Below, in pieces: positions 2,067 through 12,532 of a stretch of 22,647 nt of DNA. The DNA is from a virus: the IMG/VR virus record IMGVR_UViG_3300021963_000703, positions 1 through 22,647 of that record. One strand, given 5' to 3'. A model generated the notes under the pieces. It was not told the DNA's origin. It was given only the letters and a program-made list of their open reading frames with translations, and did not search any database. Each line of letters begins with the position of its first letter. Position 1 is the first letter of the stretch. The position numbers and the translations under genes were made by a program.

Positions 2067-2082
2067 CTGTCTTTCACCTGAC

Positions 2083-2103
2083 AAAAACCCGCCGAAGCGG
2101 GTA
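2083..2103 (-). terminator. Rho-independent terminator after the major tail gene
   Basis: On the minus strand a six-bp stem ACCCGC/GCGGGT closes a TTCG tetraloop (2087-2102) and is followed by five T residues. It lies 26 bases after the stop of the major tail gene. The UUCG loop and the oriented T-run make the strand clear. It would limit tail-assembly gene expression relative to the abundant capsid and tube proteins. Confidence 0.9.
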
Positions 2104-2128
2104 ATTGTCTTCTTAATTAAATTAAGAA

Positions 2129-10549: not shown

Positions 10550-10878
10550 CGTTGTTGTCTCCTATTTTTATCTATTTTGAAGTGTCTGGGATTACAGCAG
10601 CTGGGATTATTACATATAGTATTAATACTAATATCGTCGGCTGATTGATTATTTACGCTCATCCAGACCAGTCTGCGAGCCTGTGTCATTTGGCTGCGTT
10701 GTTGTTTATAAGCACCAAATAAGGCTCCTCCTGGGCTCATTGATCCGGTCCATATATAACAATGTTCTGGATCTATGATCTTGATCTTTGACCATAATCT
10801 TTGGTCATTCCAAGACCACTGACCCTGTTGTCTGTGTCCCTGTTTTAAGTGATATCTCTTTGGCATTGTTCTAGACAT
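10546..10878 (-). CDS. Degenerate HNH-like protein
   Basis: This is a 110-aa basic protein with the layout of phage HNH proteins. Cys40 is followed by YIWTGSMSPGGALFGAYK, then RRLVWM (about 69-74), and a C-terminal CNNPSCCNPRHF at 89-100. In active relatives the block before the first of these cysteines reads V-x-H-x-C with the catalytic His two positions before Cys; here that position is Thr87. The last His (99) and the Cys/Asn residues are kept. So it may be a DNA-binding or structural derivative, not an active nickase. HNH proteins beside terminase genes assist packaging in HK97-like phages. The start ATG 10878 is preceded by GAGG at five bases, right after the upstream stop. Confidence 0.65.
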   Translation of the reverse strand: MSRTMPKRYHLKQGHRQQGQWSWNDQRLWSKIKIIDPEHCYIWTGSMSPGGALFGAYKQQRSQMTQARRLVWMSVNNQSADDISINTICNNPSCCNPRHFKIDKNRRQQR

Positions 10879-10879
10879 A

Positions 10880-11173
10880 TCAGCCTCGGTATAGATCGTT
10901 GAGTTCAGGATTGTTTTTCATTATGTGAATGAAGCCTGTGGCCAGTACATCCACCTGTTGTTCTGTCAGGCACTGATGTAGAGTTATTTCTATGAGATGT
11001 ATCCATTCGTGAGTCAATGTTTGTAATAACACATCTTCATTGAGGTCTTGATCCAGTTTAATGATATTAGTTCTTGGATCACATAGACCCAGATCGCCGT
11101 CAAGGCTCTGTGATCTAACTGATTCTATCTGCCATATCTGGTTCATGAATTCTATTTTATCTGGTATCCGCAT
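10880..11173 (-). CDS. Small HExxH metallopeptidase-like protein
   Basis: This is a 97-aa protein. H55-E56-W57-I58-H59 is a zinc-metallopeptidase motif sitting on a helix. It is preceded by a strand pair with GLCDPRTNIIKLD (about 29-41) and followed by EQQVDVLATGFIHIM (71-85), where Glu71 or Asp75 could be the third zinc ligand. The layout (short beta-sheet, TLTHEWIHLIE-type helix, closing helix) is that of minimal ImmA/IrrE- or SprT-like phage peptidases. The substrate is unknown. Strong AGGAG precedes the ATG, and an overlapping pair of NATAAATA boxes lies just upstream, making this the first gene of the unit running through the methyltransferase and terminase genes. Confidence 0.7.
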   Translation of the reverse strand: MRIPDKIEFMNQIWQIESVRSQSLDGDLGLCDPRTNIIKLDQDLNEDVLLQTLTHEWIHLIEITLHQCLTEQQVDVLATGFIHIMKNNPELNDLYRG

Positions 11174-11187
11174 ATCTGTCTCCTATG

Positions 11188-11199
11188 TATTTATTTATC
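11188..11199 (-). promoter_or_regulatory. Overlapping late-promoter-like boxes GATAAATA / AATAAATA
   Basis: Two NATAAATA octamers overlap with a four-base offset (11192-11199 and 11188-11195), 14 bases upstream of the gene starting at 11173. The same string TAGATAAATAAATA occurs at 12360-12373. Confidence 0.5.
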
Positions 11200-11228
11200 T
11201 ATGTCATCAATAATCAACGAGTTATAGC

Positions 11229-11392
11229 AGATCCAGGGATCTTCACTTCGTCTATTATCGCTGACGCTCTATAGACATCAGTGATCTTTCTCTGCTCATT
11301 GATTTAACGAAGTGATAAGAAGTTCTACTGGTGTCTCGTCCCAGAAGGGGCGAAGCACTTGTAGAACTTACACCGAGGCGTAGACTCGGTGT
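11229..11392. ncRNA. Candidate structured RNA (unknown class)
   Basis: No convincing ORF lies here, yet helices fill the stretch almost without gaps. They are a small hairpin 11229-33/11238-42; a nine-bp perfect closing stem 11243-51/11307-15; an inner imperfect hairpin 11259-11283; a long hairpin 11320-11369 starting with nine perfect bp (11320-28/11361-69), continuing imperfectly to a GC-rich tip with an AGAA loop at 11343-46; and a perfect eight-bp hairpin 11370-77/11385-92 immediately abutting it. No T-run follows on either strand, so it is not a plain terminator. In the long hairpin G-U pairs are possible at three places if the plus strand is transcribed and at one place if the minus strand is, a weak hint for plus. 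No tRNA, tmRNA or RNase P signature was found. Confidence 0.5.
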
Positions 11393-11404
11393 GTATAATC
11401 AGTT

Positions 11405-11677
11405 CTATTTGTCAGGGGTGTTTGTGTCAGGTGAGCTACCAACCCCTCCCCCAATTGATTCGTAGATATAATCTACAAGTTCAATCCGTGACCCGTAGGG
11501 TATGGACGCTGAAAACTTATTATTATGCTGTGCCCCAGCTATAGACACATTGTTATTAAATCTATAGCCAAGACGAATCCCTTCCCAGGGGCTGCCGCAT
11601 AATTGGCTCGCTTCGTTTTTTACAGACTTTACAGAAGTACTCAGTGAGATCACTGGCTTTGTTTTGGTCTCTGCCAC
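11405..11677 (-). CDS. Doubtful small ORF, unknown function
   Basis: This 90-codon frame can only start with GTG (11677); no ATG lies between it and the upstream stop, and no ribosome binding site precedes it. The sequence is nevertheless protein-like: a Lys/Ser/Thr-rich start, a GIRLGYRFNNNVSIAGAQH segment suggesting amphipathic strands, and a Gly/Ser/Pro-rich end. Its base use differs by eye from its neighbours, with runs of G such as GGGGGAGGGG and more mixed third positions. It could be a recently acquired gene, or the coding look could be accidental and the stretch part of a longer non-coding region reaching 11229. No family is recognised. Confidence 0.35.
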   Translation of the reverse strand: MAETKTKPVISLSTSVKSVKNEASQLCGSPWEGIRLGYRFNNNVSIAGAQHNNKFSASIPYGSRIELVDYIYESIGGGVGSSPDTNTPDK

Positions 11678-11795
11678 GCACAGAGGAGATTTGTGTCGCT
11701 GGGTTAAACTATCTTAAATTATATTAAATTATATTATTTGCTGTGTAGCGATTATTTGCCGTTGTATATATTAGTTATATCTACGATTCTGTTTT
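11678..11795. other. AT-rich gap with tandem 10-base repeat
   Basis: There is no gene here. TTAAATTATA occurs twice in tandem at 11714-11723 and 11724-11733 (plus strand). Read on the minus strand each copy contains TATAAT, which could serve as -10 elements for the ORF at 11677, but no acceptable -35 element is seen. This gap lacks the NATAAATA box found before the other blocks. Confidence 0.4.
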
Positions 11796-12320
11796 TTAGA
11801 ACAACTCATTAAATGTAGAAGTCACTGCCACTGCGGCAAATATATTTCTATCATAGAACTTCTTCAGTACAGGATCAGTGGGGTTCTTGAAAGTGATATC
11901 TATGTCCCAGTCTTTGATCATAGTATTATCACCGATGTCTTTGGCGAATCGTCTTATCAGGTACCGCTGTCTTAGTAGCATACTCAGTGTGGGATCGTGT
12001 CTGCGACGATAGTGATTAGCTGTGTCTTTGATTAGCTCGTCCAGAGTATATTTCACTGGATCGTTGTATATTTTTGGTAAGTTATCCCAGCCGTTGGTAA
12101 TAAGCCAGTCTGGCTGCTGTTGTTGTATCTTTGCCAATATTTCAAAGAAGTTATTTTGATAATCGGCGATCTTCGTATATATCTGGCCGTCCAGGGGTTT
12201 ATATTGATTTTCTTTGAGATATATAGTCTGGCGAGGTAGTCCCCAACCGTCTTTGAGATCGTTGCCCAGACGATTCATTTTAGGCTGTTGTGCCTGTGCG
12301 TACGCTGTGATTTTTAACAT
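11796..12320 (-). CDS. Protein of unknown function, 174 aa
   Basis: This gene is not recognised. It is a soluble-looking helical protein: a Gln-rich start (MLKITAYAQAQQPKMNRLG), a middle with long helices rich in Gln, Tyr and Asp (KIADYQNNFFEILAKIQQQQ), a basic segment NHYRRRHDPTLSMLLRQRYLIRR (in two helices) and a C-terminal part with DWDIDITFKNPTDPV. ATG 12320 has AAGGAT upstream. It is the only clear gene behind the triple promoter boxes and leader hairpin at 12339-12388 and is bounded on the far side by the AT-rich gap, so it may form its own transcription unit. An accessory role is possible. Confidence 0.65.
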   Translation of the reverse strand: MLKITAYAQAQQPKMNRLGNDLKDGWGLPRQTIYLKENQYKPLDGQIYTKIADYQNNFFEILAKIQQQQPDWLITNGWDNLPKIYNDPVKYTLDELIKDTANHYRRRHDPTLSMLLRQRYLIRRFAKDIGDNTMIKDWDIDITFKNPTDPVLKKFYDRNIFAAVAVTSTFNELF

Positions 12321-12338
12321 TTAATATCCTTATTGGTT

Positions 12339-12356
12339 AGAGTATTTGCCTACTCT
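12339..12356 (-). other. Leader stem-loop after the promoter boxes
   Basis: AGAGTA/TACTCT forms a six-bp stem with a six-base loop, three bases after the last NATAAATA box and 18 bases before the gene start at 12320. No T-run follows. Confidence 0.4.
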
Positions 12357-12359
12357 GTC

Positions 12360-12388
12360 TATTTATTTATCTATTATACCTATTTATA
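12360..12388 (-). promoter_or_regulatory. Cluster of three late-promoter-like boxes
   Basis: TATAAATA at 12381-12388, GATAAATA at 12364-12371 and AATAAATA at 12360-12367, all on the minus strand, lie between the terminator at 12415-12442 and the gene at 12320. Confidence 0.55.
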
Positions 12389-12414
12389 TCTTGTAAGTCA
12401 ATAGATATTTTAGC

Positions 12415-12442
12415 CAAAAGAAAAGCCACTATATAGTAGCTT
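12415..12442 (-). terminator. Rho-independent terminator
   Basis: On the minus strand AAGCTACT/AGTGGCTT forms an eight-bp stem (12435-42/12423-30, one G-U pair) with the loop ATAT, followed by TTTTCTTTT. It ends the fibre-to-12533 unit and immediately precedes the promoter cluster for the next gene. Confidence 0.8.
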
Positions 12443-12463
12443 CTCCGGATATATCATTGCGAC

Positions 12464-12525
12464 TATCCTAATAACGGGGGAAACAATACACGAACTTTGG
12501 CAAATACAATAAGGATAAACCCCGT
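12464..12525. other. Interleaved complementary segments: possible pseudoknot
   Basis: Two six-bp complementary pairs are interleaved, not nested: 12464-69 (TATCCT) with 12512-17 (AGGATA), and 12474-79 (ACGGGG) with 12520-25 (CCCCGT). Gaps are 4, 32 and 2 bases. That topology is an H-type pseudoknot or two mutually exclusive hairpins. It lies in the 3' untranslated part of the gene ending at 12533, upstream of the terminator. Confidence 0.35.
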
Positions 12526-12532
12526 CACTATA

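Follow-up and report, generated by a model that had tools for sequence, protein, structure and literature searches.

The window, that is, the whole stretch of DNA analysed here, is the 22,647-base virus record IMGVR_UViG_3300021963_000703. Its convincing genes all lie on the minus strand, and among them TerL and portal genes are recognisable, the TerL being approximately 50% identical to that of small Pelagibacter and lake phages. Between a HEXXH gene (10880-11173) and an ORF at 11796-12320 lies a gap of approximately 620 bases without a conserved gene; among reference phages, the Pelagibacter and lake phages whose terminase is nearest have tightly packed genes upstream of it and no comparable gap. 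The gap also holds a 90-aa ORF (11405-11677, minus strand), whose reading as a protein we rejected. Because its frame is broken by indels and stops in relatives while the DNA covaries, this ORF is not conserved as a protein, and the description of the region as gene-poor in an earlier note on this DNA is borne out. The features of the locus are as follows:

11764..11774, minus strand: imperfect promoter-like stretch CTAATATATAC, at the site where most relatives carry TAAATAC
11740..11760, minus strand: 5' leader GGCAAATAATCGCTACACAGC, matching AGGCAAAYRACGCTACCCAGC of relatives; probable 5' end of an RNA
11443..11703, minus strand: class A core, 261 nt, multibranched and closed by CTCCTC/GAGGGG, defined by profile match and covariation
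11370..11392, minus strand: tail hairpin 1, 8 bp; relatives carry a hairpin of other sequence in the same order
11320..11369, minus strand: tail hairpin 2, long; its apex CTTCGCCCCTTCTGGGACGAG is identical in relative L045, and its base arms are replaced there by other complementary ones
11243..11315, minus strand: tail stem 3, 9-10 bp, around an inner hairpin; counterparts are ACTTCGTCAA/TTGACGAAGT in L045 and TTTGATGAA/TTCATCAAA in L178
11229..11242, minus strand: terminal palindromic hairpin AGATCCCTGGATCT, with counterpart AAGTCCTTTAGGACTT in classes B and C; probable 3' end region of the RNA
11188..11199, minus strand: promoter-like motif GATAAATAAATA assigned to the HEXXH gene, which it separates from the RNA
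10880..11173, minus strand: putative HEXXH metallopeptidase-like gene, 97 aa, downstream of the RNA and used as a synteny anchor

The earlier note had singled out the 164 nt at 11229-11392 as a set of abutting helices, and all of its main stems were found in the sequence as described: AGATCCAGGGATCT at 11229-11242, nine perfect base pairs between TCACTTCGT (11243-11251) and ACGAAGTGA (11307-11315), a long hairpin with nine perfect outer base pairs at 11320-11369, and an 8-bp hairpin at 11370-11392. The inner hairpin at 11259-11283 is also present; it is weak on the plus strand, where it contains two C/A mismatches, and better on the minus strand, where these become G-U pairs. The segment folds at -69.2 kcal/mol on the plus strand (z -5.97) and at -60.7 kcal/mol on the minus strand (z -5.59), and for neither strand did any of 200 dinucleotide shuffles fold as well. 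When both strands of the contig were scanned, 11281-11440 (plus strand) ranked third by z among 564 windows. The helices are real.

As the extent of the whole element, 11229-11392 proved too small. The segment is the 3' tail of an intergenic element of approximately 540 nt, which spans about 11764 to 11226 on the minus strand and contains the 261-nt conserved core. We gathered relatives, contigs of one phage group, by searches with the HEXXH, TerL and portal genes, and found the core in three of them (L045, L025 and L178), so that class A has only four members including the window; nhmmer gave E-values of 1e-51 or better, with a profile built from those same sequences. Across the 54 pairs that we named by hand in the core, 94.9% of cells are paired. 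Two-sided changes that keep the pairing occur in 12 of the 54 pairs, compared with 4.1 in shuffled alignments (none of 500 had as many) and with 1-4 pairs when the structure was slid along the alignment. A further replacement, of the window stem ATTATGC/GCATAAT by GTCGTG/CACGAC in L178, was not registered by the alignment. The core alone folds no better than shuffles (z -1.6 in the window, +0.2 in L045). A pseudoknot between AAGT and ACTT is possible within the core, and in L045 an ORF ends directly at the core.

In each of the four class A members the tail shows the same succession of hairpins, with arms that mostly differ in sequence. Those of the first hairpin read ACACCGAG/CTCGGTGT, GCATCG/CGATGC, AACTGC/GCAGTT and GAACTAC/GTAGTTC; the other three hairpins likewise differ in their arms between members, and L025 has one extra hairpin. 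The fold z-scores of the tails are -6.0/-5.6 for the window segment, -3.1 for L045, -3.3 for L025 and -1.6 for L178, the last being not clearly better folded than shuffles (z -1.55). The tail thus evolves fast while its architecture is kept.

Walking from the TerL, portal and HEXXH genes, we found the same slot upstream of the HEXXH gene in many phages. Two further classes of element were recognised: class B in ten contigs (L002, L008, L149, L019, L058, L125, L139, L069, L048 and L122), with three fragments (L010, L016 and L070) and a distant member (L134) in addition, and class C in five (L004, L030, L043, L052 and L155), with a partial copy in L033. The core profiles of classes A, B and C do not cross-match and their cores cannot be aligned, whereas the tails of classes B and C match each other strongly and are near-identical. 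Two-sided changes were seen in 37 of the 65 class B pairs (n = 9 distinct sequences), compared with 18.4 in shuffles and at most 9 when the structure was slid, a control over which the class B structure has an advantage since it was predicted from the same alignment; the covariation score was 0.452, compared with 0.201 for shuffles. For class C, whose alignment is less certain, two-sided Watson-Crick changes occur in 19 of 77 strand-shared pairs. Covariation beyond that of controls, a general criterion for a structured RNA, was found in classes A and B. In roughly half of the relatives the slot holds an ORF or repeats and no RNA element, so the element is dispensable. Class B also stands before GIY-YIG-like, methyltransferase-like and unknown genes, as named from their translations, and is thus not tied to one downstream gene.

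Two other kinds of sequence were observed in these genomes. In L194, L196, L197 and L198 the slot before the HEXXH gene is taken up by iteron-like tandem repeats (GTTAGTAGT, AGTAGCAGAT and others), a possible replication origin. At 4819-5549 of L046 lies another region that is free of genes and looks structured; its hairpin tail (CTGCTTCGCCCTCTGCGGG...) is similar, and it is perhaps a fourth class.

The earlier note had inclined to the plus strand for the RNA, opposite to all genes, which is most likely wrong; we favour the minus strand, the same as the genes. TAAATA, a predicted phage promoter that presumably resembles T4 late promoters, occurs 18 times on the gene strand of the window and once on the other, and many of these sites stand before genes. 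In minus orientation it is followed by AGGCA leaders before most members of classes A, B and C, and it also precedes the gene downstream of the element. The window's own site, CTAATATATAC, matches less well than those in L002, L025, L058, L019, L004 and L030. The class B consensus energy is -51.8 in sense and -40.8 in antisense, and among the ten members the sense structure contains 62 G-U and 4 A-C cells, compared with 40 and 10 for the antisense structure. For the four class A members, too, the consensus energy favours the gene strand, as do pairs that alternate between U-G and C-G. An RNA read from the plus strand would accord with the slightly better fold of the 164-nt segment on that strand (-69.2 vs -60.7), which is what misled the first reading, and with the larger number of G-U pairs in the long hairpin. 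The latter count is true (three vs one), but the minus strand has at least as many once the inner hairpin is counted together with a tenth pair in the 9-bp stem. With the consensus energies of both classes favouring the gene strand, and the promoter-like motifs and leaders oriented the opposite way, we consider a plus-strand RNA very improbable.

In the strand-shared helices of classes A to C, the G-U/A-C count, made on small sets, gave few G-U pairs for classes A and C. This would also suit hairpins acting as DNA, at a replication origin or a packaging/cos site, as would the position between replication and packaging genes and the iteron-like repeats in the same slot of some relatives. Such a DNA element is, however, difficult to reconcile with absence from roughly half of the relatives, with long-range multibranched pairing and covariation, and with the excess of G-U pairs on the sense strand in class B, and the window has no clear GC-skew switch; we regard it as quite unlikely.

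We consider it probable that the segment belongs to a structured noncoding RNA gene that stands by itself and is read in the direction of the protein genes. Neither a U-tract nor another obvious intrinsic terminator was found at the 3' end of the RNA, so the RNA could form the beginning of the downstream transcript. As a riboregulator or attenuator, such a long structured 5' leader would control the HEXXH/packaging transcript in cis, which would explain why the element directly precedes the HEXXH gene and shares its strand. This reading is nevertheless unlikely, given that the promoter-like GATAAATAAATA separates the element from the HEXXH gene, that relatives lacking the element retain both promoter and gene, and that class B elements stand before unrelated genes. 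The promoter-like motif before the gene, the unrelated neighbours of class B and the many relatives without an element point instead to a stand-alone, accessory RNA that would act in trans.

Three lines of evidence speak for the proposed unknown structured RNA: the element covaries among relatives, its position is conserved, and it is absent from Rfam. Searches of the window and relatives against Rfam 15, at gathering and permissive thresholds, matched no family and returned sub-threshold chance matches only. In agreement with the earlier note, the element is not a tRNA, tmRNA or RNase P, with no ARAGORN or Rfam match; ARAGORN detected no tRNA in the window or in L002-L005, all of which are genome fragments. 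A group I or II intron was rejected, there being no Rfam match and the element being intergenic in the window and relatives, where it interrupts no gene. When each class was compared by blastn with 50,697 phage records, no match was found, and a pattern scan of bacterial genomes for class A gave none. A scan of viral sequences also gave none, but it carries no weight, since the spacer of the class A pattern used there was one base wrong for L045. A literature search, mostly of sources other than subscription journals and preprints, found no description of these elements.

The packaging-associated pRNA of phi29, which we take to be encoded near packaging genes, is likewise a structured phage-encoded RNA close to such genes. 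It belongs to another phage type, however, and the element here is about three times longer, does not match the pRNA model of Rfam and is missing from roughly half of the relatives with the terminase in common. The nearest kind is that of GOLLD and ROOL, large, elaborately paired "ornate" noncoding RNAs of phages and prophages that form homo-oligomeric RNA nanocages and occur patchily and often, though not always, near tRNA islands (PMC12286853). The elements here are also elaborately paired and patchy, and like GOLLD they join a conserved part to a variable one. They are not members of these families: they are shorter (approximately 300-550 nt vs 600-800 nt or more), several unrelated cores occupy one slot, there is no tRNA in the window and the four relatives scanned, and searches that admitted E-values up to 10 gave no match to GOLLD or ROOL, either at 10870-11900 of the window or among the elements of L002 and L004. 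A palindromic repeat hairpin of the ACGAAGCGnnAGCGTAGT type, which is the tail hairpin of classes B and C, recurs in unrelated phage contigs, but there as a lone hairpin without core or slot. We observed the lone palindrome in L141, L142, L147, L151, L154 and L158, in some cases within integron attC-like sequence.

Elsewhere in the window, a second noncoding region (12321-12532, minus strand) contains TAAATA, followed by TTGTATTTGCCAAAG and a terminator-like hairpin GCTACTATATAGTGGCTTTTCTTTT. Its segment GTATTTGCC is complementary to GGCAAATAC in the leader of the next gene, and because the two change together in relatives (GTTATTTGCC with GGCAAATAAC in L002, L030 and L058), the region may be a small antisense RNA or a long-range switch. 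A strong intrinsic terminator, CCCGCTTCGGCGGGTTTTTG, lies between two genes at 2074-2110 (minus strand).

As predicted from sequence for its transcription, strand, ends and action in trans alike, an RNA of about 540 nt would be transcribed on the minus strand from its own phage promoter. Behind a 5' leader it would carry the covarying 261-nt core and then stacked hairpins as a tail, whose probable role is to end the transcript or protect it. The element would sit where the packaging operon starts, in an exchangeable slot filled in relatives by core A, B or C or by none. The RNA could then serve in trans as a structural RNA that aids infection. It might, for instance, bind machinery of the host or of the phage, as GOLLD and ROOL are suspected of doing; we put this role forward tentatively, at somewhat below an even chance.

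With similar reserve, we suggest that in small aquatic phages one slot is dedicated to RNA and that several unrelated large structured RNAs are swapped in it, with leader and tail modules in common and differing cores. These would represent new RNA families and may assemble into complexes, RNA-only or host-targeting, like those of ROOL and GOLLD. Large structured RNAs without an assigned job are seldom met, and new families of them have usually brought surprises in biology. In the present phages, of approximately 30 kb, one exchangeable position is occupied by at least two families that covary and that Rfam lacks. The compact genomes of these phages, the relatives that have no such RNA and the exchange of cores above a common tail provide natural controls for the role of phage RNAs.
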